Shown: positions 39,264-45,348, counted from the first letter of the stretch. The stretch: 64,000 nucleotides of DNA from Candidatus Saccharimonadota bacterium (GCA_017514025.1 JAFWLB010000002.1:188346-252345), one strand, 5' to 3'. A program made the numbers and translations. Notes: generated by a model from the sequence alone, not told the origin.

Positions 39264-41027
39264 ATGTCTCAAATCATGAAGAAAACTGTAAAACTCGCGG
39301 GTAGCCCGGCGCGGAGGGTTGTCGGCTTTTATGCGGGTGCGATAGCGCTGGCGATGCTGGCGATGCCGGTGTTGGCAGGCGGAGGCGCGGCCTACGCAGA
39401 CGAGTTCATCACGATGACCATAGACAAATCCACGGTGAATCTGGACGTTGCGGCCAGAAGCACGGCGGGGACCTTCTCCAAATCTGCCGTGAGTACGGTA
39501 TCGGTAAAGACCACCAACGGTACTGGCTATACCATAGGCATCAGAGCCGATGGGGCAAATCCAAGCAAGCTTATCAACAGTAGTGACCCAGACACTAGCA
39601 CAAATTCTCTGATCTCCATTGATGGGGCGACTACCATAGACCAGTTCAAGGCTCTATCTGCTACTACTCTCAATGGTAAATGGGGTTATATGCCGAGCCG
39701 GTATTGTACGGGCGAGAGCAGTAGCACTTGTAGCAATAATACTAATACTTTCCTGAAAGCTCCGACCACGGGTGATACCCTAGACATTACCGAAGTAGCT
39801 AATCCAACTACGGCCAATACCTACGAACTATCCGTGGGGGCGAGAGTGGATGCTACGCAGAAACTCGGTACATATAATAATACTTATGTGATCTACGCAA
39901 ATACTAATCCGGTGCCTTATTCTATCATTTATGACGATGATGCAGTGGGTAATATGCCGGAGGATGTGAATTCGGGGCAGGCAGTGGGAAATACTTTAAA
40001 TCTGGCCAGTAACACGCCAACTAGAGCTGGTTATACCTTTATTGGGTGGTGTACAACGCAACCCACCGTTAATACTAACGGGACAGATACTTGTTCTGGT
40101 ACTACTTATCAGCCTAGCGCTAGTATTACTATTTCTGTGGCTACAGCTTTCCATCTATATGCGATGTGGAGTAATAACTACACTATAGATTCCTTTGTTG
40201 CCGGTGGTGGGACGATGCAAGATTTCGCTAGGATGTCAGCGGACAAAAAGAGTAAGATAATTGCCAGCATGGCTCTAGAAACTGATTATACGGTTAAAGA
40301 TAGTCGTGACAACCAAGATTATACCATTGCGAAGCTGAAAGACGGCAATGTCTGGATGACGAAGAACCTCAATCTGGCTGGCAATACTGCGATTTCTTGT
40401 AATACTACTGATTGTAGCAACGGTTACACTACACCTACTAACCAAGGGTGGCAGAGTGATGGTAAACTCCCAGCTTCTAGTACCGCAGGATTTAACCAAA
40501 ACAACTACGCCTATGTCTATAATTCTGGGAATGCTACTACGAACTGCACTAGTTCCCAGCCTTGTTACTCCTACTATTCTTGGGATGCGGCGACGTTAGG
40601 TTCGGGTAGGAGTATTGGTACACAAGATACAGATGCGCCGTATAGCATTTGCCCGAAGGGTTGGAGACTGCCGACGTCTGGTAACCATGAAGTTAATGAC
40701 CCAACGGGGTTGAGCGGCTGGAAGCGCGGCGACTTTTACAGATTGGCTACTGCTTATGGTGTTAACCTGGAGAATGCCTACAACAGTAGCACCACGACCT
40801 TCTACAATAACGCAGGGCCGGGTACGAAGGCAAGCTTCCTGCTCGCCGGCTACTACAGCGGCGGCCAGTTCTACCGCGGTGGCGCGCGCGGGTACTACTG
40901 GTCGGCTACGTCGTACGGTAGTACCTCCGTCGCGCGTAACCTGCGCTTCAATTCCGGCAACGTGTATTCTGCCGATTACGGCAATCGTTACGACGGGTTC
41001 TCCGTGCGCTGTATGGTGGCGGAGTAG
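39264..41027 (+). CDS. DGR target: secreted FISUMP/C-type-lectin-like protein
   Basis: 587 aa. A signal peptide (~residues 14-46, ending AYA) is followed by a beta-rich domain with Thr/Ser repeats, a MucBP/InlB-like repeat region (~220-305, with TFIGWCTTQP and FHLYAMWSN), and a FISUMP domain with VWMTKNLNL (~363) and CPKGWRLPT (~463). The last ~64 residues are the variable region (VR, from 40834), where Tyr, Arg, Asp, Ser, Gly and Val replace template Asn. FISUMP is a C-type-lectin-like fold known as a DGR scaffold. The ATG at 39264 follows GGAGG. No sorting motif or membrane anchor follows the VR, so attachment to the cell is unexplained. Confidence 0.9.
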   Translation: MSQIMKKTVKLAGSPARRVVGFYAGAIALAMLAMPVLAGGGAAYADEFITMTIDKSTVNLDVAARSTAGTFSKSAVSTVSVKTTNGTGYTIGIRADGANPSKLINSSDPDTSTNSLISIDGATTIDQFKALSATTLNGKWGYMPSRYCTGESSSTCSNNTNTFLKAPTTGDTLDITEVANPTTANTYELSVGARVDATQKLGTYNNTYVIYANTNPVPYSIIYDDDAVGNMPEDVNSGQAVGNTLNLASNTPTRAGYTFIGWCTTQPTVNTNGTDTCSGTTYQPSASITISVATAFHLYAMWSNNYTIDSFVAGGGTMQDFARMSADKKSKIIASMALETDYTVKDSRDNQDYTIAKLKDGNVWMTKNLNLAGNTAISCNTTDCSNGYTTPTNQGWQSDGKLPASSTAGFNQNNYAYVYNSGNATTNCTSSQPCYSYYSWDAATLGSGRSIGTQDTDAPYSICPKGWRLPTSGNHEVNDPTGLSGWKRGDFYRLATAYGVNLENAYNSSTTTFYNNAGPGTKASFLLAGYYSGGQFYRGGARGYYWSATSYGSTSVARNLRFNSGNVYSADYGNRYDGFSVRCMVAE

Positions 41028-41056
41028 TCTTAGCCCTCTAGCCCTTTTGCTCCCCA
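40834..41056 (+). repeat. DGR variable repeat (VR)
   Basis: 223 bp, matching the reverse complement of 43337-43559 with 21 substitutions and no gaps. All 21 are at template adenines, giving 11 G, 7 T and 3 C. They fall between 40851 and 40992 and change 16 codons, 15 of them AAC/AAT. The final 64 bp (40993-41056) are invariant although they contain adenines, so this end is the likely initiation-of-mutagenic-homology (IMH) region. It spans the target stop codon. Confidence 0.97.
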
Positions 41057-41072
41057 CCTCTCCCAAAAAGGG
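41042..41072 (+). repeat. Inverted repeat at the VR 3' boundary
   Basis: CCCTTTTG and CAAAAAGGG face each other across 14 bases, with one bulged A. In well-studied DGRs a hairpin or cruciform just after the IMH aids retrohoming; here it straddles the VR end. It could also be a weak terminator of the target gene. Confidence 0.4.
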
Positions 41073-41158
41073 ATAGTGCAGGGGGCGGACTGAGAGTAGG
41101 AAACTGGAGCAAGAAAGATAAAATGATAAAATAAGATAGGGGATCGAGAAGGAACAAA

Positions 41159-42220
41159 ATGGCAATCGTGGGACGTGAGCGCCCGGGGGAAAAGCAGCAA
41201 AGAGAAGCTAGCAAGAGGGCGGAAGTGGCGAGGAGGGTGGCGCACGAGGATCGGCCGCGATTGAAAGCTGCCAGACAACTGGAGGACGAACAAAAAAAGC
41301 AGTTGATGGAGCGAGAAAAGGGTAACTACACCAGAATTTTGGCATTGAAGTGTCACAATGGGTGGTTAAAGCTTTGTGACAACTCGGCGATGATTGTGGG
41401 GAAAAAATTAGATGGAAGATTGGGGAAGACGTATAAAGTAGCGGCAGACAATGGCTACGGAACGCGGGCGGAGTACGGCGTGATTTCGATCCCGCCGGTG
41501 CAGGTGGAGGATTTCATCGGAAGGTTGGACCGGGCGGGAATTAAACTCGTGGTGGATGGGGCGTGGTCTTTGGAATTTGATCTGGGGGAAAGAGTAAGCC
41601 AAGAAGAAATGGTCAGGATGCTGCAGGAAGACTCCTTGCTGATCGAACGGGCAAACAAACTGGTGATGCCAAAGGTAGTATTGCCGGAGCTGCGAGCGGA
41701 TGTGAAAGCGCTGTTAGAATTCGTGCACGTGCAGGTGCGAAACCAAAAAGATACAACCAGGCAAGTGTTGATGAACGACGTGGAGCGACGAGCGATTGAG
41801 GCGAACAAGCTGATCATCGCAACGGCGCGGGGGTATGTGGGAATAAAGGAATGCTTGGACGAGATAGGATTTTTTACGGAAGAAATGTACGAAGACGCGA
41901 CGACGATGTGTGACATGAAAGTAATCACGGCGAAGAAATACAGGGAGTGCGTGAATTTGATCATGCGAATAGAGTCAGACCGGGCGCGAGAGCTAAAGCG
42001 AATGGTGATAGCAAAGACTGAAGCAGAAATGAATAAACCAAAAAAGAGGAGTAAACATGAGAGCACTATTGTTGGAGAGCGGCGACCTAGAGTCGTACAA
42101 CGAACGTTGGGAGATCTTGAACAATTTGGTGGAGGGGACAAAGCAACCGCGGAAGAAAAAGAAGAAGAACCTGGAGGAGCTAGTCGACAGGAACTTGCTG
42201 TCCAAGCTGCCGAGCAATAA
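41159..42220 (+). CDS. DGR accessory protein: MutS-I-like plus helical Avd-like region
   Basis: 353 aa. Residues 1-50 are charged and helical. Residues ~52-140 (RILALKCHNGWLKLCDNSA, then IPPVQVEDFIGRLDRAGIKLVV) resemble the mismatch-repair MutS N-terminal domain. Residues ~175-290 are an all-helical stretch with the look of a four-helix bundle like Avd, which feeds template RNA to DGR reverse transcriptases. The acidic tail (~295-353) is encoded in a 164-bp overlap with the RT gene. MutS-like DGR accessory genes are, as I recall, known; the joined Avd-like part is my inference. AGAAGGAAC precedes the ATG. Confidence 0.65.
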   Translation: MAIVGRERPGEKQQREASKRAEVARRVAHEDRPRLKAARQLEDEQKKQLMEREKGNYTRILALKCHNGWLKLCDNSAMIVGKKLDGRLGKTYKVAADNGYGTRAEYGVISIPPVQVEDFIGRLDRAGIKLVVDGAWSLEFDLGERVSQEEMVRMLQEDSLLIERANKLVMPKVVLPELRADVKALLEFVHVQVRNQKDTTRQVLMNDVERRAIEANKLIIATARGYVGIKECLDEIGFFTEEMYEDATTMCDMKVITAKKYRECVNLIMRIESDRARELKRMVIAKTEAEMNKPKKRSKHESTIVGERRPRVVQRTLGDLEQFGGGDKATAEEKEEEPGGASRQELAVQAAEQ

Positions 42221-43307
42221 TAGTGAACTGGATGGTGCGCTGTATGAGTGCTTTTTGATGGCGAAGCGGGGGAAATCTAGAACGGTGGACGAGTGGAATT
42301 TTGAGGTTTTTTGGGAAGAGAATCTGGCGAGACTAAAGGAAGACATCGTGAATAGGCGATGGGAGCCGGGGTCGTCCAAGGCGTTTATGGTACATGAGCC
42401 GGTGGACCGGGAGATATTTGCGGCGCCGTTTCGGGACAGGATAGTGCACCATTTTTTGTATGCGGTGATTGCGCCGTGGTGGAACAGACGTTTCATTCAC
42501 GATGCGTATTCTTGTCGGAGGGGGAGAGGGACGGATTTTGGGGTGGAGAGGATGCAGAAATTTATCCAGTCTGTGTCTATGAACGGGACGAAGAAGGCGT
42601 ATATTTTGAAGGGGGATTTGTCAGGATATTTTATGAGCCTCTCTCGGAAGAAGTTATACGAGAAGGTGATGTGGGGGCTAAAAAAGCAGTTGCCGGAACG
42701 GGGATGGCTGTATGATTTGTGTGCGTATTTGTGGAAGAAAGTAATTTTTGATGACCCGTGCCTAGAGGCGCGGGTAGTGGGAGGCAAGAGAGATTGGGCA
42801 TGTTTGCCGTGGAATAAATCGCTGTTTCACCAACCGCCGGGACAGGGGATAGTGATCGGGAATTTGACGTCGCAGCTGCTGTCGAACATCATGCTGAATG
42901 AGTTTGACTGGTTTGTGAAAAAGAAGCTAGGATTTAAATACTACGGGCGGTATGTGGATGACTTTTTTATCGTGGTGTCGGAAGAAGATTACGAGAGGGC
43001 GAAAAAAGCGATGCGGGAGGACATGCCGAAATATTTGGAAAAAATGGGGCTGAGGATGCACCCGAAGAAGATTTATATTCAGGAAGTGGAGAAGGGGTGT
43101 CCGTTTCTAGGTAAGATGGTGCGACCGGACGTGTTGACGCCAGGGCAAAGGTATCTGAAGAATATGCGGAAAGCGTTTCGGGGTTATGTACGAGGAAAGG
43201 TGGACTATGAGACGATGCAGTCGTATGTGGGGATGGGGCAGAACATGGCGGCCTATACGCAGATGAAAAAAGTCGTCCGCGAGCTAGAAGCTAAAACGGA
43301 CGACTGA
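42057..43307 (+). CDS. DGR reverse transcriptase
   Basis: 416 aa. The RT fingers-palm core runs from ~105 to ~345: FRDRIVHHFLYAVIAPWWNRRFI, KGDLSGYFMSL (motif with the first catalytic Asp), GQGIVIGNLTSQ (267-273, the IGxxxSQ form specific to DGR enzymes, not QGxxxSP of group II introns), YVDD (299-302) and a C-terminal HPKKIYIQ. There is no maturase or nuclease domain. It copies TR RNA into adenine-mutagenised cDNA. The ATG follows GAGGAGTAAAC, a strong ribosome site inside the upstream gene, giving an unusually long 164-bp overlap. Confidence 0.95.
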   Translation: MRALLLESGDLESYNERWEILNNLVEGTKQPRKKKKKNLEELVDRNLLSKLPSNNSELDGALYECFLMAKRGKSRTVDEWNFEVFWEENLARLKEDIVNRRWEPGSSKAFMVHEPVDREIFAAPFRDRIVHHFLYAVIAPWWNRRFIHDAYSCRRGRGTDFGVERMQKFIQSVSMNGTKKAYILKGDLSGYFMSLSRKKLYEKVMWGLKKQLPERGWLYDLCAYLWKKVIFDDPCLEARVVGGKRDWACLPWNKSLFHQPPGQGIVIGNLTSQLLSNIMLNEFDWFVKKKLGFKYYGRYVDDFFIVVSEEDYERAKKAMREDMPKYLEKMGLRMHPKKIYIQEVEKGCPFLGKMVRPDVLTPGQRYLKNMRKAFRGYVRGKVDYETMQSYVGMGQNMAAYTQMKKVVRELEAKTDD

Positions 43308-43336
43308 GTGAGGCTGTCACTTTTTCTCTGGAGAAA

Positions 43337-43559
43337 TGGGGAGCAAAAGGGCTAGAGGGCTAAGACTACTCCGCCACCATACAGCGCACGGAGAACCCGT
43401 TGTAACGATTGTTGTTATTGGCAGAATTCACGTTGCCGGAATTGAAGTTCAGGTTACGCGCGTTGGAGGTATTACCGTTCGACGTAGCCGACCAGTAGTT
43501 CCCGTTCGTGCCACCGTTGTTGAACTGGCCGCCGTTGTAGTTGCCGGCGAGCAGGAAGC
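43337..43559 (-). repeat. DGR template repeat (TR)
   Basis: 223 bp, read on the - strand, 30 bp past the RT stop and opposite to the RT. Read in frame it would encode the target C-terminus with Asn (AAC/AAT) at the variable sites. AAY codons cannot mutate at adenine into stops, the classic DGR design. A short hairpin (TTTCTC-TG-GAGAAA) lies just beyond its 3' end, next to the RT gene. It does not form part of any gene. Confidence 0.97.
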
Positions 43560-43902
43560 CAATAACAGCCCTTAAAGGTACGCGATCCTAGCGCAGGAAG
43601 CGCTAGAGGAATGCAATTAAAGCCTAGGGAGTCATTTTGCCTTACGTTTTCACGGCCTTGCCTTTAACGGGAAGGATGGTGCCGGGTGGTTTGTTGGCGC
43701 CGGGCGGCGACTCTGAAGGCGAAGTTCAACTCGTAATGAGGGCACTCCTACCTCTCCAGAGGACACTTTAGCTGATGTGATTTGATCCTGACAAAAGATT
43801 TTTGGCTTAACCTAATAGGCACAGTCCTGCTGCTTACCGCCAACTCTGAACCTACAGTGCTTGATTACTTTTTTTGTCGATACATCGGCGAATATGCCTC
43901 AT
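43560..43902 (-). ncRNA. Probable structured leader of the TR RNA, family unknown
   Basis: About 340 nt with no convincing gene on either strand. On the - strand it would be the 5' part of a TR transcript. It contains a perfect 7-bp hairpin with a 5-base loop (43588-43606, 28 bp from the TR), a CCTCT/AGAGG hairpin (43752-43763) and GC-rich complementary segments (43690-43712). I compared it by eye with tmRNA, RNase P, 6S and SRP RNA and found no match. A 16-aa leaderless-style ORF (43852-43902) opens it. Confidence 0.5.
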
Positions 43903-43908
43903 GGTTTT

Positions 43909-43917
43909 ATTATAACA
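43909..43917 (-). promoter_or_regulatory. Extended -10 promoter for the TR RNA
   Basis: On the - strand TGT-TATAAT, a perfect extended -10 box, with no -35 at the usual distance. The start would fall near 43902, driving RNA through the leader into the TR. It is divergent from the sigma factor promoter. Confidence 0.65.
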
Positions 43918-44955: not shown

Positions 44956-45348
44956 ATGAAAAAAGTTTTTTATAGTTTGGTAGCGATGGTGATAGGGGGG
45001 ATGATGTTGATGGCGCCGGCGATGGCGAGGTGTACGCAAGACCAGTTGGATAGCGGATGTGTGAGTACTTCGATTTTGGCGAACGGGTGTAGCTGTGATG
45101 ACGGAAGTGGGTCGGAGACGAAGCGGATTTTGCAGCTGGTGGTGACAATCATGACGATGGGGGTGGGGATTTTGGCAGTGCTAGGGATTACGATTGTGGG
45201 GATCCAGTATTTGACAGCGGGGGGAAGCGAAGAAAAAACTCGCAAGGCAAAGCGACGGATGTTTGAAATCGTGATTGGGTTGGTGGCGTATGTGATTATT
45301 TATGCGGTGCTACATTGGTTAATTCCGGACTTTAGTGTGTCGTTTTAG
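44956..45348 (+). CDS. VirB2/TrbC-like pilin with signal peptide
   Basis: 130 aa. A signal peptide (KKVFYSLVAMVIGGMMLMAPAMA) precedes a cysteine-containing segment (CTQDQLDSGC, CSC) and two helices around GIQYLTAGGSEEKTRKAKRR. It is a diverged member of the family clustered at 1.5-3.5 kb, with a more basic turn. GTAGGAGGTAAGG gives a strong start. It follows rpoD by 13 bp, an odd operon partner. Confidence 0.72.
   Translation: MKKVFYSLVAMVIGGMMLMAPAMARCTQDQLDSGCVSTSILANGCSCDDGSGSETKRILQLVVTIMTMGVGILAVLGITIVGIQYLTAGGSEEKTRKAKRRMFEIVIGLVAYVIIYAVLHWLIPDFSVSF

Follow-up and report, generated by a model that had tools for sequence, protein, structure and literature searches.

Evidence for a chromosomal diversity-generating retroelement with an antisense template repeat and a two-domain Avd protein in a Saccharibacterium

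A 64,000-nucleotide stretch of a Candidatus Saccharimonadota genome, here called the window, holds two nearly identical repeats in opposite orientation, one closing the gene of a secreted protein and the other lying beyond a reverse transcriptase (RT) gene. What has made the two copies differ, and to what end? The original prediction read the locus as a complete diversity-generating retroelement (DGR). Our analysis bears out the RT, the target and the pair of template repeat (TR) and variable repeat (VR), and adds an open reading frame for the accessory protein Avd, absent from that prediction. The source genome belongs to a Saccharibacterium (679 kb, 7 contigs), probably a host-dependent, gut-dwelling bacterium. 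The features of the locus, in window coordinates, are the following.

39264–41027, plus strand: target gene, 587 aa; signal peptide, beta-sandwich at about residues 46–216, InlB B-repeat-like domain and FISUMP domain ending in the VR (AlphaFold2 model and fold searches)
39918–40109, plus strand: InlB B-repeat-like domain of the target; Z 6.6 and 26% identity to 2y5p, Pfam Flg_new over its cut-off
40344–41012, plus strand: FISUMP domain of the target, with the VR at its end
40834–41056, plus strand: VR; 21 substitutions relative to the TR, all at TR adenines; its last 29 nt lie past the target stop
41159–42220, plus strand: accessory gene, 353 aa, two-domain Avd; 164-nt overlap with the RT start
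41333–41581, plus strand: extra N-terminal alpha/beta domain of the accessory protein, residues 59–141, preceded by a long helix (11–53)
41672–42022, plus strand: Avd four-helix-bundle domain, residues 172–288 (HHalign, Foldseek, VIA)
42057–43307, plus strand: DGR RT, 416 aa; the first ~57 residues are not conserved and the true start may be later
42855–42875, plus strand: RT motif IGNLTSQ, of DGR type
42951–42962, plus strand: RT catalytic motif YVDD
43337–43559, minus strand: TR, antisense to the RT; begins 29 nt past the RT stop codon
43765–43794, minus strand: promoter-like site, a possible start of the TR RNA; weak (9 of 12), consensus match only

An unprompted repeat search of the window returned a 230-nt inverted repeat (40834–41063 and 43330–43559). 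Computed alignment of 40834–41056 with the reverse complement 43559–43337 gives 202 identities and 21 mismatches, and all 21 fall on TR adenines, of which 11 read as G, seven as T and three as C in the VR; this is the pattern originally predicted for two 223-bp repeats at these positions. The mutated span (repeat offsets 17–158) contains 44 adenines among 142 nt, matching the earlier figure of about 44, and the hypergeometric chance of finding 21 of 21 mismatches on A is 3e-13. Two T-to-C changes at 41057–41058 lie outside the 223-bp comparison, at the far edge where homology stops. The target stop codon (41025–41027) is itself inside the repeat, as are 29 nt more beyond it. Sixteen codons differ between TR and VR, 15 of them AAY and one ACG, and no stop arises in them because A changes in AAY or ACG cannot give one, which upholds the claim that the changed codons are nearly all AAY and stop-proof. 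The locus thus combines near-identical repeats, whose differences are confined to TR adenines, with a VR at the 3′ end of a protein-coding target, as in a DGR. Comparison of the repeats establishes that adenine-specific transfer from template to target, with a DGR RT and Avd, happened in the past.

The predicted secreted FISUMP target with a C-terminal VR is supported by the signal peptide and by an HMM match to TIGR02145 (E = 1e-14; 55.6 bits against a cut-off of 41.65); a match to Pfam PF09603 falls just under its cut-off. TIGR02145 is present in 43 of 45 aligned targets of the genus. The beta-sandwich bears a weak likeness to pilins and fibre subunits, with Z up to 7.7, in the tool's "common" range. 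As to a C-type lectin fold of the FISUMP domain, PDB fold searches were filled by N-terminal domains, and in BFVD the top hit is a phage protein with FISUMP. A "Pam pilin" domain was considered for the targets and rejected: it appears in two of 45 at best E 0.001, and a search of the source genome gave no match, though neither did any control genome. The target may be lectin-like, judging solely from the published similarity of FISUMP to DUF1566 DGR targets (PMC4159848), and the changed residues are expected on the protein surface.

Five close relatives allow the two repeats to be followed across species, where the VR diverges over a conserved TR, as the original prediction would have it. Translated, their TRs are rich in asparagine and hardly vary; it is at these asparagines that each VR differs, within a framework that is kept (FLLAG, YWS, GF[SP]VRC). 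The relatives' TRs are 75–80% identical to the window TR; among their VRs only that of L118/L058 matches the window TR, at 67%. One relative, L119, also has some non-A differences in an ungapped comparison, part of them past the repeat edge.

The same genome carries two more complete DGRs on contig C6 (L018 and L019), each with its own FISUMP target, an accessory gene of the same family, an RT and a TR. Mismatches fall on A in 17 of 19 cases in L018, both exceptions being G and outside the A span, and in 13 of 13 cases in L019. About 400 nt from the L018 TR are two tandem 81-nt tRNA-like repeats (L018:3042–3204), perhaps an old insertion site. Other FISUMP genes of the genome (contigs C2, C4, the start of C6, and C7) were rejected as further VRs, having no TR similarity. 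FISUMP-like proteins are encoded at L020:103–816, L021:32–658, L022:3761–5329 and L023:103–807, three of them at contig ends, with no significant similarity to the three TRs. The window DGR is flanked by dnaK and a sigma factor gene, with no phage genes among its neighbours, which argues for a chromosomal rather than a prophage-borne element; a search for copies of the window TR in viral contigs found none. Just after the sigma factor gene, 44956–45348 encodes a small membrane protein with a below-cut-off match to the Mbov_0395 family pilin-like conjugal transfer protein.

We infer that the target binds a bacterial host cell, a phage or a gut surface, and variation of the VR may tune a surface binder for host attachment. 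A use in phage defence or immune evasion, through a varied phage receptor or gut antigen, would be compatible with the DGR mechanism. Secretion of the targets accords with it, and Roux et al. 2021 (PMC8144416) offer a virus–receptor arms race as another purpose that the targets of cellular DGRs could serve. The three FISUMP targets that the genome has in parallel, with the InlB-repeat and (weakly) pilin-like scaffolds of the window target, fit binding at least as well; we regard defence or evasion as possible, if rather unlikely.

The accessory protein, searched as a single sequence, matched no family in profile searches. Its AlphaFold2 model (72 aligned sequences, pLDDT 89) consists of a helix (11–53), an alpha/beta domain (59–141) and a helical bundle (148–291). 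Foldseek aligns the bundle with BPP-1 Avd at TMt 0.80–0.83 (4dwl_D/A, 8ub7_E), with E-values of just 0.08–0.3. VIA gives Z 14.0 to 8ub8_C and 13.9 to 4dwl_C (rmsd 2.0–2.1 over 109–111 residues), and the only entries above Avd are 2gsc, of unknown function (Z 16.4), and 2rld, of the S23 family (Z 14.9). Helical bundles can reach high Z by chance. The Avd assignment does not hang on the bundle Z alone, since HHalign matches the accessory protein to a profile of 21 Avd-like proteins encoded at DGR loci of phages and viruses (97.7%, E = 2e-12) independently of structure; HHalign against one Avd sequence was too weak to decide, whereas the 21-Avd profile was decisive. The protein is therefore placed in the Avd family (S23/bAvd fold), the accessory family of DGRs.

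Among 295 genomes of the class Saccharimonadia, the full two-domain form occurs in the window genus; weaker matches to it come from three sister genera, with one genome each (G297, G326, G198). Most other genera match profile positions ~165–279 alone, in open frames of ~115–185 aa, and the 18 loci of such shorter matches that we read encode, in most cases, Avds of 112–128 aa, often with an RT of DGR motif or a TR/VR pair with adenine bias nearby. Given the bundle homology and the single-domain Avds of other genera, the accessory gene is, on these comparisons, an Avd fused to a lineage-specific N-terminal domain. The alpha/beta domain, searched as part of the whole protein, matched no known family. 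A kinship with MutS domain I found no support (HHalign 2% to E. coli MutS 1–125, single sequence), and MutS_I is not among the 25 Pfam families listed for 72 accessory-family members. MutS domain I is matched in 11 of 14 control genomes and has no match in the DGR-bearing genome, where substitutions might therefore be left uncorrected.

The RT has both motifs claimed for it, IGNLTSQ and YVDD, and its assignment to the DGR family is borne out by several comparisons. The nearest solved structure is 8ub7, the RT of the BPP-1 DGR (E = 3e-24), and the best family is phrog_1423 (E = 3e-76). In a tree of 56 rows the window RT joins RTs of its genus (100/100), and these lie inside a supported set (98/98) with DGR-motif RTs of IMG/VR, Bacteroides phage and Segatella. 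Two group II intron RTs (ltrA), which carry QGGxxSP, fall apart from this set; BPP-1 Brt is a long branch outside it, of unsure placement. The motif (IGxxxSQ) and the position among DGR RTs thus agree. The genus has other RTs, about 26–37% identical to the window RT in matched parts: L278–L280 carry IGAM[TA]SQ and YMDD, and L281–L285 carry YMDD without such a motif.

Within the window, target, accessory gene and RT follow one another on the plus strand and the TR comes last, alone on the minus strand, opposite both the RT and its VR. We read 63 loci of the genus, of which 59 have a TR/VR pair and 58 an unambiguous polarity. In these 58, 1198 of 1274 TR/VR mismatches are at TR adenines. RT and TR occupy opposite strands in 57 of the 58, L115 being the exception, and in 56 of these 57 (all except L068) the TR follows downstream of the RT, usually directly, for either target orientation. 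L115, the sole locus with its TR on the RT strand, also has, at 303 nt, the longest repeat among these loci. At E <= 0.001, relatives of the RT turn up in 58 of 100 genus genomes; no genome has more than four matches, and a small number of the matches are fragments or distant RTs. One record, L186, is named Clostridia bacterium MS499-75 and contains a Saccharibacteria-like DGR RT with a two-domain accessory protein; the contig is probably mis-binned.

DGRs are already in the literature, as are their enrichment in CPR bacteria (Patescibacteria) (Roux et al. 2021, PMC8144416), FISUMP as a target (PMC4159848) and the inverted arrangement (PMC3521204); neither a two-domain Avd nor a genus-wide antisense TR came up in a limited literature search. 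The window locus shares with the DGR of Bordetella phage BPP-1 (mtd/avd/TR/brt) the RT, the Avd four-helix bundle, the adenine-specific TR/VR changes and the VR at the target C-terminus. It differs in that its target is a chromosomal host gene, its Avd has the extra N-terminal domain, its repeat is 223 rather than 134 nt long, and its TR is antisense to and downstream of the RT, whereas that of BPP-1 is on the RT strand between avd and brt. The "inverted" DGRs of Shewanella, Vibrio and Photobacterium (DiGReF, PMC3521204) likewise have RT and TR on opposite strands, but in those elements the TR is on the strand of its VR and target, whereas in the window the latter two go with the RT and the TR stands alone on the other strand. 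The window locus, as a cell-encoded DGR in a CPR bacterium, is comparable by host group with the Patescibacteria clade 2 DGRs (PMC8144416); clade 2 targets typically have no recognisable domains, in contrast to the signal peptide, InlB B-repeat and FISUMP of the window target. In human-gut DGRs with Fib_succ_major/DUF1566 targets, too, the VR is located, or predicted, in a C-terminal FISUMP domain; the N-terminal architecture of the window target differs from that of the example given for them, an Mfa2 lipoprotein (PMC4159848).

A further difference from BPP-1 concerns RNA and DNA structure. BPP-1 needs a stem-loop after the VR for efficient homing (PMC3240598), and a folded spacer 3′ of its TR recruits RT and Avd (PMC12875486). 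No GC-rich stem-loop was found just after the window VR; strong stems within 70 nt occur at the VR in 16 of 59 genus loci and after the TR in nine of 59, where shuffled sequences give 0.6. Across the genus, the sequence immediately 3′ of the TR forms better folds than its shuffled versions (mean z −1.3, 52 loci); as the signal is nearly equal on both strands, this peak is a lead only, and a terminator is as likely. In the window this sequence is the last part of the RT gene, read in antisense. A conserved leader RNA upstream of the TR was rejected: the genus has no common sequence there beyond a few close pairs, window positions 43560–43860 show no unusual fold (z +0.6), and Rfam gives no match upstream of the window TR. 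The TR presumably has its own promoter and a separate transcript; besides the site at 43765–43794, a second promoter-like site (43985–43958) matches the consensus only.

We consider it highly probable that the locus is a chromosomal DGR in which a separate minus-strand TR RNA undergoes adenine mutagenesis by RT and Avd, and the cDNA replaces the VR of the FISUMP gene. The TR would be transcribed from its own minus-strand promoter, and the RT, with the accessory Avd domain, would copy this RNA into cDNA, placing random bases opposite adenines. This cDNA would then take the place of the VR that closes the gene of the secreted FISUMP protein; identical sequence, the stop codon and the following 29 nt included, would guide the exchange. 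Asparagine (AAY) codons of the FISUMP domain would thus be randomised while the framework stays fixed, with 16 codons changed so far.

Could the element instead be decayed or silent, its VR diversified once and the TR/VR differences left as fossils of dead machinery? The want of an obvious stem-loop after the window VR would suit such a history. Yet all frames are open and the RT active site is intact, the variable span has zero non-adenine mismatches where drift would add some, and targets and TRs are still patterned in dozens of species; decay is very improbable, and the DGR is likely to be active now. Plain gene conversion or duplication involving two copies of FISUMP, in which a retron, DRT or intron RT is a bystander, can be dismissed almost entirely: the NCBIfam matches to group II intron, retron and DRT RTs that might favour it are far under cut-off, the adenine-only changes go unexplained and recur across 58 loci, the TR is not a gene, and the window RT falls among RTs of DGR motif and apart from the ltrA sequences.

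If the locus is a working DGR, its extra Avd domain may handle RNA or target recognition. A bolder proposal, which we hold tentatively and think doubtful as it stands, is that the fused domain is a new DGR module recognising the antisense-transcribed template RNA or the target site, in place of the classical sense-strand spacer and post-VR stem-loop, and would so explain function with TR and VR on opposite strands. The fusion of Avd to this domain, together with the antisense TR, offers a natural variant for working out how the complex of RT, Avd and RNA is built. Cultivated Saccharibacteria live on other bacteria, and their host recognition is largely open (PMC12206443). Three cassettes randomising secreted proteins in a 0.68 Mb genome, with such RTs in over half of the sampled species of the genus, point to a concrete, testable answer to how hosts may be recognised.
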